Shown in pieces: positions 12,601 through 49,300 of a stretch of 64,000 nt of DNA. The DNA comes from Undaria pinnatifida (Eukaryota; Sar; Phaeophyceae; Laminariales; Alariaceae). The first letter of the stretch is position 1. Each line of letters begins with the position of its first letter. Below the pieces are notes generated by a model, which saw only the letters and a program-made list of their open reading frames with translations, ran no database searches and was not told where the DNA came from. The translations under genes were made by a program, and so were the position numbers. Location: the NCBI GenBank assembly GCA_012845835.1, contig JABAKD010000016.1, forward strand, positions 26,211,527 through 26,275,526, in the 5' to 3' direction.

Positions 12601-12852
12601 TCGGTTTTGCCAGGCGCGAGTAATGAGACGTATGCACCGGTATGGACCTCGCACATCGTAGACTGACTCCCGATTTCACTTTTATATGTTTCTGGTGGAG
12701 GCATGAATTGCGTCAGCTGTGATATATGCGTGTACCACCTTGGGTTGTTTGCGTTTTTCCCTGGGGTATTCCTCAGCTCCAGAGTGACTGGAGCCTGTCC
12801 TGTGACCACGGACTTGATTAGGCGAGTTAGTGTGAGAACAACAACAACAGTG
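12600..12852 (+). repeat. R3 SINE-like repeat with (AAC)n tail, copy 1
   Basis: R3 is about 235-250 bp long and ends GCGAGTTAGTGTGAGAACAA followed by (AAC)n. Internal blocks are CCCTGGGGTATTCC, CTCCAGAGTGACTGGAGCC and TGTGACCACGGACTTGATTA. A second full copy is at 24229-24517 in the opposite orientation, and a third with a hugely expanded tail is at about 39918. Partial pieces are at about 6594-6625 and 22045-22140. The fixed 3' end with a simple-repeat tail is SINE-like. Confidence 0.75.
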
Positions 12853-20500: not shown

Positions 20501-23500
20501 TATTGGCCACGGTTTCGGACAGAATGTCTCCATGGCTGACGTATTGCCACAATTGCCGAGAGTTTATCCCGATGGCTGACGTGTTGTCACAAGCGACAGC
20601 TTGTCACGATGGCCAACGGCTGGTGGCCCCAACGACCGATGGGTGGCCACGACTGACGGATGATTTTACGACGACCGAGGGATGGTGATCTCCACTCCGC
20701 AAAAGTTATGGTTATTGTCGCCTTCTCTGATTTTGATTCACCCCCTCCTCCCCATTCCCATGACCCCTTTCGCTCGATTGTTCTATCGCTCTATTTTTCT
20801 CTTAGCATGGTATCAAGTACGCCATGCTGACTGAGCAGCGGCTGTTAGGCACCTATGTCTTGGTGATGGCCACGGAGGCTTTGTGCCCGAGGATATCGCA
20901 AGTACAAACTGCCACCGTGCCCACCGGGCTAGCGGTGAGTGGTGACGTTTAACTATTGTAGATACGTCAGCTGTGAGTTTGTCCAATTGAGTGGTCGGTT
21001 TCTACATCCTCTGCGACTTGCCTCAAAACCTCCGTATGTGTGCAGTTGACGCCTCCCAATGCTTATTAAAACCCCGTCGGCCAAGCATGAGGTGGTTGCT
21101 GATTGGCTCGGGCTCGTAGAGCCAGCGAGCCAGCGCGCTGCGAGAGCTGCCCCTCCGGCCAACTTCGAGGTCCCGCCGCATGAGATGGTAGCGGTGATAT
21201 ACATCGGCTTGGCTCGAAACATCCGTGTATGCGCGTATGGCACCTCCCAATGTTTCTCAGAACCCGTCGACTTCGAACTCGAATATGATGGTGTTATACT
21301 TGTACATATGCAGGGTGCAATATTGGTGGGTGCTTGTCAAACCGGACGATCAAACGTGCGATTGATTGTTGTGGTGTTATACAGCGGCTTGGGTCGAATC
21401 CTCCGTATATATAAGAACTTGACGCTTCCCAGCGTCTCAAAATCCATCGACCAAAAATGCGATTGTGGCGGCGTTTTACAGGGTATTTGTTTTTTTTAAT
21501 CCAAACCGCAGGACTAAACATGCGATTGGTTGCGACAGTCTTGAGGTTAATCTAGGGAACAACAGCGCAGTAGCTGTGCAAATGGCGGGGCTCGCCTCGA
21601 ATCTTCCGTAAATTAGAACTTGACCCCTCCCAATATTTCTGAAAACTCATAGACTAAAACTGCGATTTTGACGGTCTTATACCTGGTACTTGTCATGTAC
21701 AGGGTATTTTGGGGAACAAAGGTGCCGTGGCAGTGCGAATGGAGGTCGCGGGGACATCCTCGCTGTGCTTCGTGTGCGTGCACATGGCGGCGCATCGAGA
21801 GAACGTGCTTGCAAGGAACGCCGAGTACAAGCTCATTGCCTCCAGACCTATATTCGCAGACACAACAGGCAGGCGAGTCTCGTTCCTTCCCCGGCGTCGC
21901 CACGAGCTGGCTTGCGTTGCTTGTGCTGCTTGCACCGTATTAGCTGATAAGTTGATACGTACTACTTGCACCACTGCTTTGTTGTTAGTTTGCAGGGTGC
22001 GATAGTTGCGATTGTTGCGATGAAAAATTTGATACCAGTAGTTATTTCATCCCAGGCTGGTTGGAGCATGTCTTGTGACCACGGAACCGATTATGGCAAT
22101 GCGTTGACGTCGAAACAACAAAAAACAACGCCAACAACAACGACCCTCATTTGGTTGCATGCGCCAACAAGCTTCCGCCATTGACTTCATGCGAGAACAA
22201 AAACCACAACACCAACAACAACGATCCTTCCGCCTGGTTACATGCACCATCAGGCTTTCGGCTGGCTCACCCGGAGACACCGCTGCGAGAGATAAGCCAC
22301 AGGGCAGTACTTGGGGCGGTTTGTTCGGGGCCGCGGTTGGCCAGGGCGGGGGAGCAGGCGGCTTATCCCCGTCACGCAATGTGGAAGTAAAGAAAGCGAT
22401 AAGAGCCGCTATGGCGTTTGGGTTGCCGAGGGGGGGCGGAGGCGGTAAGGCTGCGGCAGCTGCCGCCGGGAGGACGGCTTCGCCTAAGGGGGAGCGAAAC
22501 AATGGGAGCCGGAACGGTGCTGGAATAGGTGAGACGTGGCGCACGTACCATAAGCCGTTGGATTTGTTGTTTTGAGGTGATGCATGGCACACGCAAACCA
22601 TCGTAACAGGATGGTTGTTCTGGACCGGTTTAATATAGGGATGCGCGTTACGCTCTCAGGTTGCCCTTGGAACGGGGTTGTTGTTTTGACTAGAGGTTTG
22701 AGCTGAATGCAGCGAGGTGCCGTGTGCTCCCGTTTTCTCTAAATACATTTAAGATTTGTCTTGTTCAGGTGGGACCACATACGAAGCTGATTTGCCCACA
22801 TGCGCCGAAATTGCCGATGCTTCGGTGTATGTATTGCGGCTAACATTGGCGGGTGTCGTGAGTTTGTAGCAGGTTTTGCTCGTTAGGGCGAAGATAAGGG
22901 GGGTGCGGGGGGGCGGGGGTTGTTCCGCATGACAGGTCGTGTTATTGCGGTTGTTGTTGCTTTGCGAGGGAGCCTCACGCGAAACGCTGTTGTATCACTA
23001 TCAACACCGTTGGCGGATGGCGTCTTCGGCTCACTTTTCTCCCCACTGTGGCATGCTAGCGTCGTAGCCGCTCTAACTCGGAGACCAGGATCATAGCTTG
23101 TGTGTTCGCGTGTCATGCTACTTAATGCGACGGTAATCCTTGTGTTGATAGGCGCTTGCGTTGCGTGCGCAAACGTCACAATTTTTTTTTGTTATCTGTA
23201 GGTGAGGGTGGGAACTGCCTGCAGCGATAAAGCTGGATGTGATATACAGTATGGAGACATACTCCATACATGTTACTTGGTATCTTATTGATAGCCCTTC
23301 CGCGATACACGTGTTTTCGTCGACACTAACGCCAACCCTCGGCGCGCGATTTGGCCTAGTGGTAGAGGCTACACCCGTTGCTAGTATCTCGCGTGCTCTG
23401 CCCATCCGGCACTCGAATAATCGCTGTAATATAACTATGGTGTGGGTAGGCACTAAAGTATCCCTCGCGTCGCTCGTATTCTATGCGCAACATTGGTGTG

Positions 23501-24238
23501 ATAGGATCGACCAATGCGGACCCCGAGAAGGAGGCGTTTGTTAACGGGGCTAACGCGGTTAACGATGCCCAGGAGACGGACGCCGCCGCCTGGACCCCGA
23601 GTGAGGAAGGAATCGCCAACGGCCTTCCCAAAACAAAGACAGTGATGCAGGTAAACAGGAATCGGCGTAACGCAACTCGCATATTTTACAAAACTATCGA
23701 ATGTTACATACGAGCAGCTTTGAGTGTACACAGCAAAAACACTATTATAGCAGCGCTCTTATCGTTCAGCTTGGGTTTCTACTGTTGCGGCTTGAGAGCG
23801 TTATAGCTCGCCTTGGACATCTGCTGTCGCGGCTTGAGAACGTTTTTGCTTTGTTTTCCTCTTTGCGCTTGCTGCTTATAACATTTTTCGTTATGTACCG
23901 GGCCGACATAGTGTTCTGGCTTGGTGACCTGGACTACCGCAGCGCCGTAACGTTTACTGCTTTAAAGTCTAGTGAATGGCATGTGCCAGGCCAACATACG
24001 TGTTGATTGTGGGTTTGTAGTTTGGTGACCTGAATTGCCGTTCTTTTTTGTTTCCTCTGATTGCTATGTGCCAGGCCGACAGTGTGTTTTGGATTGGTGA
24101 CCTAACCTACCGCATTGCTATATGACGTGTTTTGTGTGTTTTTTTTCTGATTGGCATGTGCCAGTGTTGATGCGTGATGCGTGCTCACCTACCTATAGTA
24201 CCGTTTTCTGTTTTTGGGTTGGTTTTGATTGTTACCAG

Positions 24239-24273
<35 letters not shown>

Positions 24274-27200
24274 GTCGTCGTTGTTGTTGTTCTCACATTA
24301 ACTCGCATAATCAAGTCCGTGGTCACAGGACAGGCTCCAGTCACTCTGGAGCTGAGGAATACCCCAGGGAAAAAACACAAACAACCCAAGGTGGTACACG
24401 CATATATCACAGCTGACGCAATTCATGCCTCCACCAGAAACATATAAAAGTGAAATCGGGAGTCAGTCTACGATGTGCCAGGTCCATACCGGTGCGTACG
24501 TCTCATTACTCACAGTATGCCAGGCCGACATAGTCATCCGGCTCGGTGACCTGAACTGCCGCATCTTCCTGACGTTTCTGTTTTGTTCATTTTGCTTCTT
24601 CTGAATGCTTTAGTATGTGCCGGGCCGACGTGGTGTTGTGCCTGTTGTGGCTCGTTGACCTGAACTACCGCATCGCCGTAACAATGTTTTCTTTTTCATC
24701 TTTATTTTCATAGGCCGACATAGTGTTCTGGCTTGGTGACCTAAACTACCGCATCGCCGAGAAGGTGTCCGACCCGGAGGTGTTCGAAATGCTTCGAAAG
24801 GACGACTTGGAGACTCTGAGGTATGTCACGTCACCGCGTGAAACCATGCTGAACGTACCTTGAAGTGCTGCTAGAGTCTAAACACACGTTTCGAGTCGGC
24901 TCTTAACGGGACTAAGAGCAGTAGCAGCGGCAGCAGTGGTTGCAACAGCGGCGGCAGCAACGGTAGCAGGGGCAGCGGCGACGGAGGCAGCAGCAGCGTA
25001 TCATTGCACCTGTTTGGTTCGTTGCGTCTCCACCCCAACCCTAACCCTAACCCATGGCAAACAACTTTGGTTTTTTTTTTTGTTTCATTATGCAGGTTTA
25101 CTTGCCTGGGATGTGCCTTCATCTGAAACGCAAACAAGTGTAGGGCATTTCCTGCGTTTTCCTGTTGATGCTGGTTTCCCTTGCCGGAGGCACTCACTCA
25201 TTGGTCTCACTCATTGGTGTTTTGTTATTTGTTGGCGATTGCTTGCCGATTGACCGCTGAAAATCTACCGCTGAAAAAATTCGGTAGATTTGTTAATGAC
25301 TTGTAGACTGCCAATTGTTTCGCGACTAGAAACGCATCTGTACGTGTGAGTCTCGCTTGCTGTGGTTCGCACTCGGCCATGATCGACGGTGTCCCCCCTC
25401 CTCTCGCTGAAGGCACAGGAGCAAGGGGGGTCCTGTATACTGTATGACCGAGGCCTCAGCAGGAAGGGTACTATATGCTACAGGTACTATATTATTCGCT
25501 TTACTCTGCTACAGTTTGTTTTCCCCGTTTTCAGCCCGAGTGGCGCAACAAGCAATTCGATGGCGTCGCATTTCGCGAGTTATTTATTTATTTATTTTTA
25601 TCCTCCGGCGGATGTGGAAAAATAAAAACTAAAGCTTAAGCTCACCACACTTCCACGCATTTTCATACACGATGTGTGACCATTTGACTCAATTGTATTT
25701 GCGCTGGTGTATCCTTCAGTTTCCGTGGTAACGACGGCGCGAGCTGTCCCTACCGGCGGTCCCCGTTCCTGCTCTACCAGCGCAAGCTGTCGTTGTATAC
25801 GGATGCGTGAGTAAGTCGAGTAAGTCGACCCGGGCTGACCCCTGGGGATCTGGTGCGGTGCGGTGGAGATTTGAGAGCAAAAAATGAAGAGCTGCAAAGC
25901 GAAGCAGTAGACTGACCACTCGCGCGATCGACCCTGAGCCGGTGCAATAAATTAAACAAAATAATAGGACCCCTCCCATTAAGAAAAAACTCACTCGCGT
26001 AGTATACTACAAGTACCAACAACGCAGCTTGCAAAGATGAGTATTGACCCGAAATTCGTCGAACTCACGGTTGACGTCCTTGAAATATTTTTATACAATG
26101 GCCTCAAAAGTGTTCTCCTTCCCCCAGCCTTTGTCGTGGCAATTGAGCACGCTCGGGTGTTGGACTGTCCCAAGGCGCGATGCCCAAAGTAAGGGCAGCG
26201 CAACACCCAAAGCATCGACGGTGTCCTTATAGTGCCCCCCAAACTCTCTTTGAAGTCGTTACAATGCCCACCAAACCGTCGACGACGTCCTGATAATAGC
26301 CGGTAAACCGCGTTATCACTGCTTCCGTCTCCCACGACCTCGAGCGCGCACCAGGTGACGGGGGGGGTGAGGGTAGTCGGCGGGGTAGGATTAAACGGGG
26401 TCCCTAACCCTAACTCTGCAACACTGTTTAATCCTACCTGTTGACCTTCCAGCGCCTGGCTAGGTGCTTTCCGTACACTGGTTGGTTTGGGGTGCACACA
26501 CCCAACAGCTCTGTTCTTTGGCGTGTTTTTAAAATCCTGGGGTCCGTTTTTGTATTCCTGGCAGGAACCTGGACCAGCTAAACCTGGCGCGTGCGACCGG
26601 AGATGCCTTCCAGGAATTCCAGGAAGGGCCACTGTGCTTTCCTCCGTCCTACAAGTACATCCCGGGCACGCGCGAGTTTGACACTCGGTGAGTCTGGGTC
26701 TCTCCCACCACCCGCTTTATTCCACTCCCGCTTTCTTCCTCGCCCGCCTGATGAGCTGGCCCGCCTTCTGAATCGTTTTTCAGCCCTTAAAATGGTCCTG
26801 TGGTAGTCTATGCCCAAGCGTTTTGTCCCGATGTCCGGGGTGCGGTGCTAAAAGGGTTATGATCCGACCCGCTGTATGAGCCGAACCGCCGTATCAGCCG
26901 GTGGGTTTTATTTTGTCGCTGTTCCTCTGTGGCAGACAAGCCGGCCTGCGGTGGTGTTAATAGCTTGGAGCCGGTATACAGGAAACAGCCCTAAGATTAG
27001 GGTTAGGGTAAGGGTTGATAGGCGCTCGGTTTGGTTTTGCTAGCGGACGTTAAAGGGCATAATTTTTCTTTGCGTGGTTAAGCGGAGAACCGATTGGCTG
27101 GCTCAATGGCTCAATGAAGCACCGAGACGCGCAACTTCAGTCCGAGGGATCAAGCGTCAAACGTATTATTAACAATAGAGACAAATCATTGAGGCTGTGG

Positions 27201-29039
27201 TAGATATCAACGATTGAGGCTAGAGAGCATCCGTTGAGGCCATGATATATATCAACGATTGAGGCTAGAGAGCATCCGTTGAAGCTGGAGAGCAACCATT
27301 GAGGCTATGATAGAGAACAACCATTGGAGATACAGGGTTAGGGTTAGGGTTAGTTAAACGGCAGTTGTTGAGGCTATGATAGAGAGCAACCCTTGAGGCT
27401 AAGATATACAGCAAATATTGAGGCTAAAGAACGGCTGTAAGACTACGGCAGAGAAAACCGCTGAGGCTAGAGAGCAGCCATTGAGACGCACTGCGGGTGC
27501 ACGAAACTCCCCGCCGCGGCAAGGCAGCCTAGGCAACAATTTGGGAGGGGGGGGGGAGTGGGTACACACATAACCTGTGAATATGTCGTTCCACCTTTGG
27601 AGCTATCCTCAGCACCGTGGGGGCCAAGTGTAGAAGTGTGGACTGCTGTCGGACAGGCCATTGTGTAGCGTCACATGAGTGCCACAGGTCAAAGGCGAGA
27701 CTGCGCAGTCGTGTAAATTCTTGAATTTCGTGTCATGAAATTATTTCAATTTGTTTGTTCAACCATTTTCGATTTATTGTGCTGATAATGTTGGAACTAT
27801 TGATAACGTCAACAGTTCTTGGAACTACGTAGTGATATCAAATATTGAATTTCCGTGGTCGCCATCGTTGAGATTGCCTTCGCCACTGCTCCCTTGCGTC
27901 CGTCTGCGTGATGATGTTTACCTGACTTGATGCCGGCCCACACGAATGGGGTCTCCATTCATTCAGTCCCGAAAAAAAGGCGAGGTGTCCATCCTGGTGC
28001 GATCGCGTCTTATACGCGGTAGGGAGCCACGGAGGGGACTCGATACGACGACTCGCACTGGACAGATACTGGAGTGCCGGGCCTCTTTTGTCGGACCATA
28101 TGCCTGGTGAGCACGGGCTTGTTTTGTATGTCTGTCCCTCGGTGCCGTCCGTTCCCGGTTATCCATCGGGCGGCCGAAAGGTTTCTGCCTAGAGGGGGAA
28201 GGCTTTTGCTTGCCGAGCTCCGCCAACCGCCTCTTGCTGCAGCTTGCCAATGACAACAACGCGACGTGTGTGTACTGCGATCGCCTTGCTGGATTGCTGG
28301 GCCCCCGACCGATTCGTGGTACCACATTGGGTATTCGTGTGCACGGTACATGTCGCCGCGCTTCTGACTAGTTAAAACAGCTTTTTGGCGGGCCCATTCC
28401 CACATTGGCGGCCGTGGAATGGTGAACGGAACCCATAGCTGTGCCCCTCCGCCGCGGCGTTGCTGATGATCTCTCTCGCGGCCCCTCTCCCCCCGCCCCC
28501 TTACTGCCGTCGCATGGTGAACAAAACCCGAACCTACCGCAGTGAGCGCGCTTTTTCGCACGTCGCTGACGTGTGCTCCGGAGAAGACTATCGTCGAGCC
28601 AGGGATCGAAGCCGAGCCGTTGAGTCCGCGCAGAGCAGCCGCGGCCGCCGTGTTCGAAACCGACCCCTTCCCGCGCATCACGCTGGAACCTCCTGCTCTC
28701 GTCTTGGCCTTGGATGGGTCGACGTCCGTTTCGGCGACAGCGTTGATAACCAACGTGGGAGGGTTGGAGGGGAAGTACCACGTGTGTAAGGACTGCCTCC
28801 CCGCTTGGATGAGCCTCGCTGGGGACGGGCGAGGCGAGCTGGGCCCGGGTGAGGGGGAAGAGCTCGGCCTCATTGTTGACGGAGCCGTGGCGGGGGATGC
28901 CGCCGCCAGCGACGGGCCGGCACATAGAAGACAGCCCCAAGATCCACCTGCCGTCGGCGCGCTTTTGAAGGTGGAAGTCGACGGAGGTGGAGAAGGGGCA
29001 TTGCTTCCCGTATTGTGCGTGGTCGCTTCTGAACGATGA
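14252..29039 (+). CDS. OCRL/INPP5B-like inositol polyphosphate 5-phosphatase, 10 exons
   Basis: Exons: 14252-14522, 17378-17490, 19728-19847, 20806-20934, 21703-21868, 23505-23650, 24714-24820, 26565-26687, 27967-28106, 28543-29039 (about 603 aa). Every junction agrees in phase. All family motifs appear in order: GTWNVAG, PDLFVVGFQE, GNKGAVAVRM, HMAAHRENVLARNAEY, WLGDLNYRI (catalytic Asp/Asn region), SYKYIPGT, PSWCDRVLY and SDHMPVSALF. These enzymes remove the 5-phosphate from PI(4,5)P2, PI(3,4,5)P3 or soluble inositol phosphates at the cytosolic face of membranes. After the catalytic domain comes a region starting around FPRITLEPPALVLALDG that resembles the ASH domain following it in OCRL and INPP5B. 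No RhoGAP domain was found, and the frame stops at 29037. The N-terminal 75 residues are serine/proline-rich and variable. Exon 6 adds about 48 residues of polar insert absent from animal homologues. Least certain is the exon 5 donor, which appears to be GC rather than GT. The substrate cannot be told from sequence. Confidence 0.9.
14523..17377 (+). other. 5-phosphatase intron 1 (2.9 kb)
   Basis: The donor is GTGAGC and the acceptor CCTTGCAG. It contains an R1 copy at its 3' end (17125-17352), directly before the acceptor tract, and CAG-rich DNA near 14640. No internal gene is supported; the open frames at 15404-15987 are low-information. Confidence 0.7.
17125..17352 (+). repeat. R1 dispersed repeat, intron 1 copy
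   Basis: A diverged R1 copy ends about 25 bp before the exon 2 acceptor. TGCAAGCTACG, TACTGGGTGTGTCCTCATTA, GGGTGATGTCAATCAAT and AACCCGTTTTTGACGCGGAC are recognisable. Confidence 0.75.
17378..17490 (+). CDS. 5-phosphatase exon 2 (PDLFVVGFQE)
   Basis: It lies between CCTTGCAG and GTGGGT, phase 1 in and phase 0 out. It encodes an acidic helix (DDMGEWLDVDLLDAEGE) and then PDLFVVGFQE, whose glutamate is the conserved metal-binding residue of the family. Confidence 0.9.
17895..18015 (-). repeat. R1 dispersed repeat, intron 2 copy (inverted)
   Basis: The 5' half of R1 in reverse orientation. TCCTTAATGAGGACACACAC, GATCGGAGTATCACACGCAG and AAATCTTCGATCTCACAGCT are recognisable. With the plus-strand copy at 17125 it brackets exon 2. 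Confidence 0.8.
18360..18600. repeat. (CCAGA)n run and surrounding intron DNA
   Basis: About nine copies of ACCAG/CCAGA at 18540-18584 lie within intron 2 (17491-19727). The short frames around it are repeat-driven. No gene is seen. Confidence 0.7.
19728..19847 (+). CDS. 5-phosphatase exon 3
   Basis: Acceptor CTTATTAG, donor AGA|GTAAGT, phase 0 on both sides. It encodes the helix after the metal-binding Glu (VVELSAQNVVMDSFLDTQSR) and WFTLVYAYLAKYGQR. This matches the place in the family where the helix carries less conserved residues. Confidence 0.85.
20168..20290 (+). repeat. R1 dispersed repeat, intron 3 copy
   Basis: The 5' half of R1, close to consensus (CACTCCAGCTGTGAGATCGA, TTTGCAAGCTGTGTGTGATA, GTCCTCATTAAGGATATGGG). 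Confidence 0.85.
20330..20690. repeat. Imperfect tandem repeats of GATGGTCACGACGAC type
   Basis: About ten diverged units of 25-35 bp with the core GATGGTCACGAC(A/G)AC. Three at 20398-20470 are nearly identical and carry AAGTGTAGCAT. They lie in intron 3 before exon 4 and are non-coding. Confidence 0.7.
20806..20934 (+). CDS. 5-phosphatase exon 4
   Basis: Acceptor TTCTCTTAG, donor GCG|GTGAGT, phase 0 on both sides. It encodes YAMLTEQRLLGTYVLVMATE, the beta strand corresponding to 'Y..L...QLVGL.LLVF' of the family. The ending TATVPTGLA leads directly into the GILGNKG motif of exon 5. Confidence 0.9.
21010..21702 (+). repeat. Four decayed tandem units ahead of exon 5
   Basis: A unit of roughly 180-205 bp is repeated at about 21030, 21222, 21402 and 21606. 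Each has (C/T)CCGTAxxT, TTGAC(G/C)CCTCCCAAT, AAAACCCxTCGAC, GCGATTGTGG(C/T)GGT, TTATACAG. The last unit provides the real acceptor of exon 5 (TGTACAG|GGTATTTTGGGG). The third carries the look-alike TTTTACAG|GGTATTTG and the second CATATGCAG|GGTGCAATATTGG. The array is therefore made from the intron's own 3' end plus the first bases of the exon. Confidence 0.75.
21703..21868 (+). CDS. 5-phosphatase exon 5 (GNKG, HMAAH)
   Basis: Acceptor TGTACAG. It encodes GILGNKGAVAVRM, then FVCVHMAAHRENVLARNAEY, the catalytic histidine region ('S.HLAAH....RN.DY' in the family). The frame remains open to 22005, but the likely donor is ACAACAG|GCAGGC at 21868. This is the only choice found that keeps phase with exon 6. 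It would make intron 5 a GC-AG intron. Confidence 0.8.
23335..23415 (+). other. tRNA-like box A in intron 5
   Basis: TTGGCCTAGTGGTAGAGGC matches a pol III box A. The expected box B is poor (GGCACTCGAATAATC) and the arms do not fold convincingly. It may be a tRNA-derived SINE remnant. Confidence 0.25.
23505..23650 (+). CDS. 5-phosphatase exon 6 (polar insert)
   Basis: The frame is fixed by the donor end (ATGCAG|GTAAAC, phase 0). The acceptor GTGATAG at 23504 is chosen because it gives the phase needed by exon 5. It encodes about 48 polar and acidic residues (for example NAVNDAQETDAAAWTPSEEG). They lie where animal enzymes have a short loop between the HLAAH helix and the WLGDLNYR strand. The start is uncertain. 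Confidence 0.6.
23895..24713 (+). repeat. Decayed tandem copies of exon 7
   Basis: Five degenerate copies of the first 45-50 nt of exon 7 with its acceptor lie in intron 6, at about 23903, 23990, 24072, 24519 and 24620. Recognisable pieces are GCCGACATAGTGTTCTGGCT and TGGTGACCTG(A/G)ACTACCGCA, preceded by TGTGCCAG- or TGTGCCGG-like acceptors. Several are followed by GTAAC after the CGCC that ends the copied part. Spacing is about 80-100 bp, except where an R3 element (24229-24517) interrupts the array. Confidence 0.8.
24229..24517 (-). repeat. R3 SINE-like repeat, copy 2
   Basis: A full copy in reverse orientation starting at its (GTT)n tail (24238-24292), then TCACATTAACTCGCATAATC and GGTCACAGGACAGGCTCCAG, ending near GTACGTCTCATTACTC. 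It is inserted within the exon 7 tandem array, so it is younger than that array. Confidence 0.8.
24714..24820 (+). CDS. 5-phosphatase exon 7 (WLGDLNYR)
   Basis: Acceptor TTTTCATAG, donor CTGAG|GTATGT, phase 0 in and 2 out. It encodes ADIVFWLGDLNYRIAEKV, the most diagnostic motif of the family (Asp and Asn of the active site), and the helix VFEMLRKDDLETLR. Confidence 0.95.
24890..25060. repeat. CAG/GCA-rich tract and telomere-like units in intron 7
   Basis: Imperfect GCAGCGGCAGCAG repeats (24918-24995) are followed by CCCTAACCCTAACCC at about 25032, three units of the TTAGGG complement. Non-coding. Confidence 0.7.
25600..25790 (-). repeat. R2 A-tailed retroposon, intron 7 copy
   Basis: A reverse copy with ATCCTCCGGCGGATG, AAGCTCACCACACTTCCACG and CATTTTCATACACGATGTG. 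The 5' part (GAGCTGTCCCTACCGGCGGT) is more diverged than in the 7.2-kb copy. Confidence 0.7.
26025..26075 (-). repeat. R1 fragment
   Basis: Only the core is left: ACGCAGCTTGCAAAGATGAG and AATTCGTCGAACTCACGG, in reverse orientation. Confidence 0.5.
26565..26687 (+). CDS. 5-phosphatase exon 8 (SYKYIPGT)
   Basis: Acceptor CTGGCAG, donor ACTCG|GTGAGT, phase 2 in and out. It encodes NLDQLNLARATGDAFQEFQE and PPSYKYIPGTREFD. The latter is the family's 'FPPTYKY.PGT..YD' motif, which shapes the phosphate pocket. Confidence 0.95.
26690..27966 (+). other. 5-phosphatase intron 8 with GAGGCT repeats
   Basis: It contains about eight degenerate units of 30-45 bp with CATTGAGGCTATGATAGAG (27180-27480) and GGGTTAGGGTTAGGGTTAG at 27331, a telomere-type triplet. 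There is also a G-run near 27545. No coding segment. Confidence 0.7.
27967..28106 (+). CDS. 5-phosphatase exon 9 (WCDR, SDH)
   Basis: Acceptor TTCATTCAG, donor CCTG|GTGAGC, phase 2 in and 1 out. Too short and offset to stand out as an ORF, but it joins exon 8 in frame. It carries RCPSWCDRVLY, then LLSDHMP, completed to SDHMPV by exon 10. The catalytic Asp-His pair (SDH) is intact. The 'R' usual after SDH is Met here. Confidence 0.9.
28543..29039 (+). CDS. 5-phosphatase exon 10 (ASH-like C-terminus)
   Basis: Acceptor CCGCAG, phase 1 in, stop TGA at 29037-29039. SALFRTSLT ends the catalytic domain. A linker follows, then about 120 residues resembling an ASH (immunoglobulin-like) domain. It starts around FETDPFPRITLEPPALVLAL and includes VSATALITNVGG and a polar LGPGEGEELGLIVDGAV stretch. 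A further exon cannot be excluded, but no donor with good context was seen. A 387-codon open frame on the opposite strand is a GC-driven shadow. Confidence 0.8.
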
Positions 29040-39905: not shown

Positions 39906-39917
39906 TGCTTGTCTCTG

Positions 39918-40045
39918 CGTGTACCACTTTTGGTTTGTGTTTTTCCCTGGGGTATTCCTTAGCTCCAGAGTGACGGGAGCCTGTGTCCTGTGACCACGGA
40001 CTTAATTATGCGAGTTAATATGAGAACAACAATAACAACAACAAA
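39918..40045 (+). repeat. R3 SINE-like repeat, copy 3
   Basis: The 3' half of R3 (TTTTTCCCTGGGGTATTCCT, CCTGTGACCACGGACTTAAT, GCGAGTTAATATGAGAACAA) ending in its (AAC)n tail. A 45-bp non-repeat piece separates that tail from the very long CAA array. Confidence 0.8.
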
Positions 40046-40087: not shown

Positions 40088-40330
<243 letters not shown>

Positions 40331-41632
40331 ACAACCGACGGGGTGGCGGGGGCGCACGTCTTGAAGGCGTGTGTCCCCGTCGGGAGCTCAGGAGCTTTCG
40401 GCACGCGTACGAAACTCCATGGAGCCCACAATTCCGTGCATAATTCGGCTCTGAATCTACGAAGATCGCGATTTGCTTTAGTTGTAAAATCGGTCAAAAT
40501 ATTTCCATCACATTTCATTGGATAAAATATAAAATAGAAGACGATGATTGGCTGGTACCACGACGTGGAAAAAGGGGAGATGAGACAAACGAAAAAAGGC
40601 GTTGCATTTTTTTTCTGTTTTCTCCGATACCACCCTTTACACCACCCGATCCCCCTCGCACGACTGAAAGGAACCAAAGAACCTCTTGGTACGAACTCTC
40701 CAGGTGCCAAACAGCTCAGAACGACGTTTGCGGCAGGTTGCTCGTGTGGAGAATAAGAGGTGTCGGGGCGGCGCGCTGTAACTGCCGCCATCCTGGAGCT
40801 TTCAGGCAACCGTCGTGAACGTTGGGTGAGCTCTGCTTCTTGTGTTTTCTGCTTTTCAAGCTTGCTACAGATTTTGCACTTTCTCGCAGTCCGTGCGTGG
40901 CTTTCCCATGTATGATGATAACCAGCTCTGCCTTGTTGATTTCTGGATGTTTTCACTGCTGTCTCGGCCAATAGTTTGAGCTCGTAGCATGGCTGGTCCA
41001 GATGCTCTCAGTGTCGCATGGCCAAGGGGCTTCCTGCAGTGGAATGGTTACAGGTTCTGGCTGCAGTCGCCCTCCAGGTGTTTCTGTACGGTGTGGAGGA
41101 ATCAAACTCAGCGATTCCGAAATACGGGTGTACGAGTAGTCTATACTACCAGGTATCACCGAAGCAAAGGGAGGTACCAAACGCATCACGAGTATCTCGC
41201 CGCTTCTCGGTTCTCGCAGCAGTGCCCTTCTGCTGCTGGTGCTGCTGCTGGTGCTGCCGCTGGTGCTGCTGCTACTCTATTGCTATTGCTACTGCCGCTG
41301 TTGCTGTATCGCCCTGCTGTGCAGCTATGATAAATGGGCAACTCGTTGTTGCACGGGTTACTATCAATCAGTTAATAACGATGTCGACTATCCCCTGCCT
41401 ATCCAGCTATCCCGTGAGAGCTGGAGCTGCTTCCACCAGTTCACTGCACGGCAGGAGCCGAAGTATCTGATATCTGATGCGAGTGGTTCGCAGGTGCACT
41501 TTCGGCCATCTCTTATAATAGCGTATCCGAAAGAGAACATTAGCTTGACTTTCGGACGGCAGAATCTGACGGGCAGAGTCGGATCGACGACCCTTTTTAT
41601 GATGATGTGAAACCGGAATTGACAGATCGTCT

Positions 41633-44705: not shown

Positions 44706-45941
44706 GTAAGCTTTGAGCATCTTATTTCATCTTATTTCGTCGTTGTCCGGAGGAACGAACCATCCATTCCGTTCTTCCGTACTTCACCAATACACCATGA
44801 TATGACGTTGTCCCGATGAACAAGAAAGAAAAAAGAAATCAGTGCCACGACCTGCTGTAGATATGGACTAGTAGTTCACACCGCACATGGGATTCCAAGT
44901 TAGTCCCACGCTACTGACAGTTGTTGGGGTATTGGCCAAGCTATTGTTTGTAATTCCTCAGTTAGTTGGCCTTTTTTGTCAGAAACGCCTAGGCCCAAAT
45001 TCTACCGCTATCGCCGCATGCGCCTCCAACCAATGCATCTAAACCCTAACCCCAACCCCAACTCTGCATGCACCGTGTGCAATGTTGTACCGTTAGCGTT
45101 GAAAATTAGACTTTTTGTTGCCCTCATGGGGTTTGCGAATTTGCACTATTTGACTGTTTTTGCAGGAAAATGCCGCGTTCTTCGATTACTGCCGCGTTCT
45201 TCGATTAATGCCGCGTTCTTCGATTAATGCGGCGTCCCTAACTCTAAGATGCTAGACGCGACCCACCGCAGCGTCGGGGTTTGGCACGTTGTTGGGTGCC
45301 AGCGACGACAAGTACCCAATGCGGTTGCAAATCGTGTCTAACCTATGTGCGAACGTCGACGTGTTTTTTCGCTGTCATACCGTGTTCGATGTCTCACTCT
45401 CGTACGCACGTTTTTTATTCAGGTTTGAATCCTTGCCTCGATCCTGCCAGCTCCAGTTTCGTATGTGCGCCAGGCACCGATGAAATGTGAGGGGACCGGT
45501 CCCAACCGATGTGCGCCGGTATGCGTGCTTTTGACTGCATATTTCGAGCCATATTGAGCGTTTTATGGTGTGCTAAACGTACTCGTTGTTCAAAGTTCCG
45601 CCTTCATATTCTATTTCATATTCTCCGTGCGTTATTGTTGGGTGCCCTTGACACTCGTTGGTCAGGCGGCTTTGCCTGGAGTAAGACAGTTTCCAACCTT
45701 AGTAAGTCAAATAAGCAATATTTCGGGACGGTTCTGCACGACCGAATGCACGCGTTGTTAAAAATGTTGACGTAGATGACCACAGGGAGGTTAGATCGAC
45801 ACAGCGAATAGCGCGGCTCCGGCCCCCACTGCTGTTTGTACTGCTCTTTGTACTGCTCTTTGCTCTTTGTACAGACGTACACCCGTGGCTATTTGCTAGT
45901 GTATAGCCTAGTGTATCAGTTAATGTATCACTTCGGCTATT

Positions 45942-45972
<31 letters not shown>

Positions 45973-45977
45973 CTATG

Positions 45978-46030
<53 letters not shown>

Positions 46031-46056
46031 TATTATTACTATTATTATTATTGTTA

Positions 46057-46139
<83 letters not shown>

Positions 46140-46143
46140 GTTA

Positions 46144-46183
<40 letters not shown>

Positions 46184-46187
46184 GATG

Positions 46188-46232
<45 letters not shown>

Positions 46233-46266
46233 GTTATTGTCATTATTATCATTATTGTTATTGTTA

Positions 46267-46340
<74 letters not shown>

Positions 46341-49300
46341 TTTAGTTACTGTATCAGTTAGGGTTAGTGCCAGTAGATCTAGATTTAGCTGTTATGCGCA
46401 GGGCGCCTTCATCTCTGGGTAAGAAAGGTTTTACTGGTCTGGATGAGAAAGGTTATACCAGGTACTGGACAGGTACTGTACTGTTACTGCACTGCTGTTA
46501 CTGCGCTGGTACATTGTTGCTGCATTGTTACGGTACTGTCACGCACTGTTTGTACATGGTTACTACACTGTTTGTGCACAGTTACTTGACTCTTGTGACT
46601 GCGGCGATGGGATGATATACATGATACCTTCGCCGCTGTGGTTGAATGTTGTTTGATTGTGTTTGAATGTGTTTGATCAGTCGTCTCCACGGCTGTGGTG
46701 TGGCCGTTTTTTTGCTGTTTGAATGGGTTTGACCAGTGACATCGAAGGATGCGGCGTGACCGAAGACGATGCCGAAGACCTAGCGGCATGCCTCACTGTC
46801 GCCAGAAGAGCTGGCGTCAATAACTTGTGAGCGCAACGCTTCTGCTCGCCTGGGGTCAGGCTGTTATTTTTTTGCGGTATACCGCTGCCTTTCGCTCCAT
46901 TCCCGCAGCGCTGCTGCGCACCTGGCGTCGAAATATAATATTTGCCCGTAAATTGCTGCTGATTTTAGCTCACTTGCATCCTGCATCCTAAGAACAAACA
47001 ACATATTGTGGGGTTAGTTTCCCCTTGGGTTATACTAGCATATGAGCAGTGGCCTGGCCGCAGCAGTATTGCACGGTGCGTGTAGACCATTGGACCATTG
47101 AGGCCCCTGAGGGAAGAGCGCGTATCAACCGCGTCATGTCACTTTTTTACGTACTGTCCGCCGTGACGACGGGTTCTTCGCCAGGGTGAAAAGGGTTGCT
47201 TGCACACCCCGGCGTATCGTACTTGAGGAAGCACCATCGCCTGTAATACACTGTAATACATTGTTCTTATTAGAGGTGCTAATCAATTCATACTGTAGCC
47301 GTTGACGGCCACAGGAGCACCTCACGAGGTATGTGAAACCCAACATGTATCTTCTTTTTGTTTACCAAACTAATTAGCCATAAAGCAGGGCATACTCCTT
47401 GTCACGAACAACTCGGCATGGATCATAGTGCGTTGTGCCGAGCGAGCAATAGCAGTCAGTCCCTTGCGTATCCCCAACTGTTTTACATGAGGTTCACGGC
47501 ATTACTCGTGTAGAGGTTCACGGCATTACTCGGGCAGAGGTTCTCGGCGTTACTCGGGTAGAGGTTCACGGCATTACTCGGGTAGAGGTTCTCGGCATTA
47601 CTCGGGTAGAGGTTCACGGCATTACTCGGGTAGAGGTTGGCCGCATTACTCGGGTTGGCCGGCTTTGTCCACGTCCCGAAAATCCGAGTTTCGCTCGGAA
47701 CCCAACAAAACAAGGCACCGTGGGTTGAACGTGGCAATTGCCCGATGGCGGTTCGAGCCGTTGATTGAGTGCTCCAAGACTTATGACGAACATGACCATC
47801 ACAAGTCGTGACCATCGGAAGTCTTGCACGTGCTCGTGGCGTGTCGCCCGCTGAACGCACCGGGTATAATGTATTGGCAGTATTGCAGTATTGCAGTATT
47901 GCAGTATTGCAATATTGGGTGCTCTGCCCGTTTGTGCGGAACCCGGTTATCTTCCTGCCGGCAAATAAAACCGTGGGTTGCGGCGGGGTGCGAGAATATG
48001 TCCGTTCTTCGATGAAGGCGCCAGATATGCGATTATATCTTCGTCCCTGTCCCTGTGTCTGGTGTTTATGTGTGTTGACTGTTTGTGCCTGCTTGCATCT
48101 TGCCTGATGTGTTCTATTACGTTTTCATCTGTTTTTTATTCTATTTTGACCTGCTTGGATCTGTCTTACTCGGGTGTTTTGTCCGGGGATGCAGCAAGGA
48201 CGAGGACCGCCAGCCAACTTTCGCCTCAGGTGCGGCGTATGAACGGTCTTTGCAAGACATCGAAGTTTCCACCACGACGTTTCTTCAGCTTGCCACCGAA
48301 CGCTTTGACGCGAGGACGGCTGCCTCCGGTTTGCAAGCGGAGGCGAACTGGACCTTCGATCACCACCAGGTGATTCAGTACAGTGCAGGACCCCTATTAT
48401 ACTACCAAACACAAACACTGGCCCAGGCTGGGTTTCCTATTTCGGACGGTGCGTTCTTCCTCTACATCAACTTCAGTACAACGACTCCCAGATTTCTTCT
48501 ATCGTTGTAAATTCCATGCTGCCTTTCGTATTACCCTGTTCCTTATTACCCTGTACTCAAATCTATAAGTGTGCACAACGTGTGCGTAGATGAGAGAAGT
48601 GGTCCCTGTATAGAACCAGGGTGTACCAGCCGGAAATACCGGCACTATATATATATCTAGCGCCGGTATGAGCCAGCCGGAAATACCGCACTATAACGGC
48701 AGCCAGCACTACTCCGCATCCCGCGATTGCTGGTTGTTTTTGTCTGTACCAACCGATTTCACTAGCGCTACCGGCACTATAGAGGTATAGAGGAACCACT
48801 ACTGTGTAGTGATACATGGTACTTTATGGTGGCGCGAAAAGCTCTGAAGTTGTCTTTATTGATGGGGGGCTTTCTCGGCAAAAGCATTTTTAGCCACGAA
48901 AGTTTTGCAAGCTATGGTCGGGCTCCTTTGTGTGCCGTACCTTGCGCAAGAAGGCAGTGTGATTCGATACTTGCTACAACCTTGACAAGACTGATACTTC
49001 GATCGTCGCGGATCGTTCGCGACGCGTTAACCCTGGCTTGGCTTTTACCGCGGCGAAGCATCGTGTTTGGCACCCTGTTCGTGTAGCCATGTATCCACGA
49101 CCCTCTTACGGAACATGACAGAGTACACATTATACGGTACGGCTGTAGTTACTTCTCACAACGTTGATAACCACACCCACACCCGGGAGAGTCTCCAGCG
49201 CGTGCTACGATTGGGGTATACAGTAGGGGGGGCTATATAAGGCGGTATCGTGCACCGAGATTTTGACCGGCCTATCTCGAAAGACCGCCCTATTGGAGTT

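Follow-up and report, generated by a model that had tools for sequence, protein, structure and literature searches.

Degenerate tandem copies of an exon edge ahead of the WLGDLNYR exon in a 5-phosphatase gene of Undaria pinnatifida

The array and its host gene

The intron that precedes the catalytic WLGDLNYR exon of a 5-phosphatase gene in the kelp Undaria pinnatifida contains several segments resembling the start of that same exon, which raises the question of whether these are true copies, how they came to be there, and whether they can serve as exons. The window, meaning the whole 64,000-nucleotide stretch of contig JABAKD010000016.1 that was analysed, holds an OCRL/INPP5B-like inositol polyphosphate 5-phosphatase gene on the + strand. 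When its predicted exons were joined, the 5-phosphatase family domain was found (Pfam PF22669, E 4.7e-59), and the solved structures closest to the joined exons are those of INPP5B, synaptojanin-1 and OCRL. The intron that bears the array spans approximately 23651-24713, between two predicted exons:

23516..23650, + strand: predicted upstream exon of the 5-phosphatase gene, with an open frame and a likely donor CAG/GTAAAC in phase 0; its left end is provisional, and its peptide was covered as part of the joined query
24714-24820, + strand: functional exon with the WLGDLNYR motif (ADIVFWLGDLNYRIAEKV...), which is the last copy of the array; predicted boundaries, with acceptor TTTTCATAG (AG/GCC) and donor GAG/GTATGT

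Within this intron there are six tandem degenerate copies of the intron 3' end together with the first ~46 nt of exon 24714-24820. In a unit, the intron half corresponds to TTTCTGATTGCTATGTGCCAG at the 3' end of the intron; the exon-like parts begin at 23902, 23990, 24075, ~24165, 24524 and 24624. The array comprises the following:

23879..23951, + strand: U1, intron half 23879-23901, exon-like part 23902-23947 (43/46 identical to the exon), GG at the AG site, GTAAC kept at 23947-23951
23952..24043, + strand: U2, AG at 23988-23989, exon-like part 23990-24043 with 13 inserted bases
24041..24125, + strand: U3, AG at 24073-24074, exon-like part 24075-24119, donor lost
24126..24239, + strand: U4, the most degenerate unit, AG at 24163-24164
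24240..24511, - strand: R3 repeat, between U4 and U5; homology covers 24280-24511, and its (AAC)n tail appears as a TTG run at 24240-24291 on the + strand
24512..24576, + strand: U5, AG at 24522-24523, exon-like part 24524-24569, donor lost (CTGAC)
24577..24682, + strand: U6, GG at the AG site 24622-24623, exon-like part 24624-24678 with 9 inserted bases, donor GTAAC kept at 24678-24682

A preliminary description of this locus had listed five copies of the exon start at a spacing of 80-100 bp. Those five are real and correctly placed, U4 was absent from the list and brings the number to six, and the starts of the exon-like parts lie 85-100 nt apart, except across R3. A further candidate unit at ~24478 (GATGTGCCAGG) lies inside R3 and was hence dropped.

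The resemblance between units and exon goes beyond chance, as the same description had assumed. Using the exon as a blastn query (E<=1), copies were recovered at 23901-23947 (94%), 24074-24115 (88%), 24523-24565 (86%) and 24643-24678 (89%), with E values of 6e-15 for U1 and <=2e-5 for the three further units, and no copies were recovered elsewhere in the window. A fifth copy, at ~24015-24040, came from a repeat search and lies beyond the blastn set. When the full units were scored against a full-unit consensus, 0/1000 shuffles reached or exceeded the score of any of the six. This consensus was hand-written from the units other than U4, which makes the test partly circular for these; the circularity does not extend to U4, whose score of 29.3 was reached by 0/2000 dinucleotide shuffles (best 27.0), and the blastn evidence with the exon is independent of the consensus. 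In alignments to the exon start, the five stronger units scored 18.8-46.6, compared to a background maximum of 16.7 among 58 equal-length + strand stretches outside the array. The exon half of U4 alone scored 12.3, below that maximum, and U4 is recognisable only together with its intron half, lying in register with the neighbouring units. The intron does contain a TTG run and T runs, from which a chance or low-complexity resemblance might be suspected, but the BLAST and shuffle results refute this explanation, to which we attach practically no weight. The tandem array is a real and confirmed observation.

As R3 sits within the array, it is also conceivable that the exon edge was picked up by a mobile element and spread through repeated insertion. 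However, no units were seen elsewhere in the window, and a genome search with a 201 nt query around the exon start, which scores best candidates only, found three places, all of them here, and no such unit beyond the locus. In addition, the copies share one strand at a spacing of 85-100 nt except across R3, and R3 itself lies between units. We consider repeated insertion very improbable.

R3 has relatives in the window in opposite orientation at 12618-12848 (97.4% identity) and 39916-40044 (89%), as well as a weaker match at 22062-22095, and an (AAC)n run or AAC-rich sequence terminates the copies found in the window. By our reading, the repeat looks SINE-like. A search of Rfam gave no match at the gathering threshold. 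At 23350-23425 there are motifs that we take to be a tRNA-like A-box and B-box (TGGCCTAGTGG ... CACTCGAATAATC), possibly the head of a tRNA-derived SINE, and no tRNA was called by ARAGORN. Other simple repeats in the window include very long trinucleotide runs, (AAC)81 at 40093-40335 and (TAT)136 at 45938-46344, and short interstitial telomere-like runs of (CCCTAA)n and (AGGGTT)n at approximately 25035-25053 and 27334-27353.

Splice signals and decay of the units

The copies could in principle be functional or regulated decoy or alternative exons, i.e. in-frame 45-nt cassettes of a mutually exclusive or poison type through which phosphatase expression is tuned. A 45-nt cassette would stay in frame, since the predicted upstream exon ends, and the WLGDLNYR exon starts, in phase 0, and some splice signals survive: AG is kept in four of the six units (U2, U3, U4 and U5, with GG instead in U1 and U6), GTAAC is kept in two (U1 and U6), and a bare GT is present in U2 (GTTCTT) and U4 (GTTTTC). 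However, AG and GTAAC do not occur together in any unit (0/6), and reading in phase 0 past the retained AGs leads to a stop after 12 (U2), 16 (U3) or 26 (U5) codons, or after a single codon in U4, where TGT TGA follows directly. None of the six units thus combines both splice sites with an open frame in the manner of a cassette or mutually exclusive exon. The differences between the five stronger copies and the exon are also spread over the three codon positions in a ratio of 10:8:15, which is not significantly uneven by chi-square. With these data, we regard a role as alternative exons as unlikely.

The acceptor-like ends noted in the preliminary description are accordingly present in U2-U5 but replaced by GG in U1 and U6, and the GTAAC said to be kept by several units is found in just two, both with GG at the acceptor. 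The suggestion that the units resemble micro-exons with both splice sites therefore fails, as no unit has AG together with GTAAC and stops stand behind the retained AGs. The simplest reading of GTAAC is that it would represent a duplication junction, made up of the last exon G and the intron sequence TAAC, rather than a preserved donor, because ...GCCG closes the exon part and TAAC opens the intron part of the unit. The stretch ahead of U1 begins TAACATTTT, which resembles the junction of the later units; the match on which this reading draws is short, at four bases ahead of U1.

Aligned over 46 columns of exon sequence, U1 departs from the exon at 3/46 positions, U2 at 8/41, U3 at 7/45, U5 at 9/46 and U6 at 6/46, while U4 differs at 9/33. 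Leaving U4 aside, copy-exon divergence has a mean of 0.15 (range 0.07-0.20), whereas the ten comparisons among the five copies give a mean of 0.24 (range 0.15-0.33). The exon is the sequence nearest to the consensus of the five copies, from which it departs by one silent difference. This is the pattern predicted if the exon is under selection and the copies decay freely, and it upholds the proposal that the intron end and exon start were amplified in tandem with selection retained on the last copy alone. We also see that U1, the copy farthest from the exon, is the closest to it in sequence, which is unlike stepwise addition at one end; at 3 versus 6-9 differences in ~46 nt, this is weak evidence.

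The units look like neutral relics of a tandem duplication across the splice site, and we think it very probable that the array arose in this way, as one case of a wider regime of local duplication. Repeated head-to-tail duplication, whether by slippage, unequal exchange or repair, would have acted on a segment reaching from the intron TAAC to ~46 nt into the exon (ending ATCGCCG). The one copy still attached to the remainder of the exon would have stayed functional, while those upstream became intron, presumably unspliced, and decayed. The AAC-tailed element would then have inserted between two of the copies. R3 is probably younger than the array because it is 97.4% identical to the copy at 12618-12848, versus a divergence of 7-20% between the exon parts of the five units and the exon, in agreement with the earlier suggestion that R3 was inserted later and split the array.

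Exon-edge copies elsewhere in the genome

The same gene holds a second array further upstream:

21017..21693, + strand: second array, with units of roughly 180-200 nt, in the intron upstream of exon 21703-21876
21703..21876, + strand: exon piece (GILGNKGAVAVRM...), the source of the 5'-edge copy in the second array

Here, the segment 21544-21588 is a degenerate copy of the first 43 nt of exon 21703-21876 that keeps its AG and an open frame (VNLGNNSAVAVQMA).

A survey of 20 5-phosphatase pieces, eight from the window gene and twelve others, found same-strand edge copies within up to 3 kb for 6/20, the flank being shorter than 3 kb where the locus sequence ended. A narrower first pass had given 1/8 positive pieces for the window gene, and without widening of the pieces the counts were 2/20 at E<=1e-3 and 3/20 at E<=0.01. 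As a control, exons were compared to foreign flanks, and 7/324 of these were positive, of which six could be traced to the same exon seen from an adjacent locus and the seventh to a paralogue's homologous exon. Among 30 CCT chaperonin pieces, drawn from 57 matches, 5/30 had edge copies within 1.5 kb. Pooling the two families at 1.5 kb gave 10/50 pieces, compared to 45/200 random segments of the same loci, and the inverted-strand control gave 0/50 pieces and 8/200 random segments. Of the 27 CCT places left over, which were weaker, 20 formed a further set, with edge copies for 3/20 versus 25/80 random segments and 0/20 inverted; all 5/5 of its matches were on the expected side.

In total, edge copies within 1.5 kb were found for 13/70 exon pieces versus 70/280 random flank segments, where the pieces are unannotated HMM matches, partly weak, that represent two families at selected loci rather than a random exon sample, and where loci of the same gene share overlapping flanks, also between the CCT sets. 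Two of the pieces, L004 and L005, share a single open frame, and a few matches contain a stop. Exon edges are therefore hit no more than their surroundings, perhaps a little less, and a special attraction of exon edges was rejected on these counts. Local duplication is generally abundant in a 128 kb sample made up of the window and 5-phosphatase loci, which is not random genome: direct repeats no more than 600 nt apart cover 10.7% of it, local inverted repeats 1.9%, and direct repeats more than 2 kb apart 0.6%. The array in the window is ordinary for the genome of U. pinnatifida and not peculiar to the 5-phosphatase gene; as one of many such arrays, it gives no reason to see anything special about the catalytic exon.

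The position of the copies follows a strict rule, with 5' edges copied upstream and 3' edges copied downstream. Of the copies that include 20 or more exon bases, 27/27 are found on the same side of the exon as the edge they repeat. They belong to the 12 positive edges (four 5' and eight 3', on 11 exons, with both edges affected on one exon, L033) for which a boundary was recognised by motif, each BLAST piece being counted apart. Tandem duplication through a splice site that spares the exon has to produce this geometry, which speaks further against insertion of a mobile element, an event that would not require it. Within these copies, exon columns are 81.5% identical (1111/1364) and intron columns 70.5% (518/735, a figure biased upward by local alignment), and the greater likeness in the exon part agrees with decay along one branch rather than two. 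An early impression of a fixed length for the exon part, drawn from six cases that were mostly 42-55 nt, was abandoned with the wider set, which ranges over 24-76 nt.

Splice dinucleotides are intact in 19/24 scorable copies, a figure that would sit well with the use of some copies as alternative exons but that lies near the ~16/24 expected from 81.5% base identity, and on which we make no claim of selection on the splice signals of the copies. Some edge copies may nevertheless be used in splicing, given these intact dinucleotides and the AG and open frame of 21544-21588. Overall, tandem duplication acting locally throughout the genome would cross splice junctions about as readily as it crosses the surrounding DNA, and would leave copies of 5' edges upstream and of 3' edges downstream of exons.

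Comparison with amphioxus mirages and implications

The closest known kind of structure is the amphioxus 'mirage', described for Adh3, the globins BflGb6 and BflGb9, and TnC (PMC3087553), with imperfect mirage repeats also described for lancelet PGBD5 (PMC3902484). As portrayed in the available portion of PMC3087553, mirages are minisatellite-like tandem duplications across an intron-exon boundary, as is the kelp array; both acceptor and donor edges can be affected, as among the kelp copies, many units have AG/GT, and both length polymorphism, between haplotypes or somatic, and undisturbed splicing are reported. Judged by its sequence, the array in the window fits the structural definition of a mirage: its six same-strand units form head-to-tail tandem repeats in register, and each unit spans the boundary, with the intron 3' end, the AG position and ~46 nt of exon. 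Acceptor and donor edges are both affected when the genome as a whole is considered, which is not the case at exon 24714-24820. The kelp units are more decayed, with 15-33% pairwise divergence between the exon parts of five units, compared to the 81-100% identity given for BflGb6 units. A further difference is that the kelp edge copies accompany 13/70 sampled exon pieces in a brown alga, whereas mirages are known from lancelets. In the open-access literature, searching the term 'mirage' yielded no description outside lancelets in the text available, and no report of mirages in brown algae was found, although 'mirage' and brown-algal terms were searched apart and this is weak evidence.

Other systems are comparable in part. 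A published survey of exon duplication in 20 genomes likewise deals with exon-intron homology within a gene and with degenerate (pseudo) exons, but counts duplication events per gene, and its available portion describes no exon-edge arrays or sides. Tandem exon copies within one gene are also a feature of tandem exon duplication and mutually exclusive exons (PMC9013439), and of LRR exon shuffling in brown algal ROCO genes (PMC11378527). In what is available of these two accounts the copies are mostly whole exons, many of them used, whereas here the exon edge alone is copied and the copies in the array are broken. Tandem duplication has also been argued, in the accessible part of one study, to be a source of new introns in Drosophila (PMC2891723).

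The rate of exon-edge arrays in this genome is a new result that is itself worth reporting. Such arrays supply introns with duplicate splice signals and with exon-like fragments that can mislead gene finders and aligners. If the rate in the 70 pieces holds genome-wide, which is an extrapolation, the genome would contain many independent trials of splice-site duplication, with a bearing on whether the spliceosome ignores a decoy, on whether introns or exons are gained, and on how introns grow. We put forward, tentatively and at somewhat less than even confidence, the possibility that one main route of intron lengthening in the genome of this kelp is tandem duplication across splice junctions, with about a sixth to a fifth of exons carrying decaying edge copies. 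If this were true, each edge copy would come with a splice signal from the outset, and cryptic splicing, as well as the gain of introns from duplicated boundaries, could be studied as a natural experiment in a lineage far removed from the cephalochordates in which mirages were described.

Two of the CCT exons show how such copies are arranged at other loci. Downstream of the exon at L045 (C29:12914769-12914948), seven BLAST pieces repeat its 3' edge and donor; several of them lie ~80-90 nt apart and four have an intact GT. At L033 (C13:3481168-3481428), the 5' edge of the exon is copied upstream and its 3' edge downstream.
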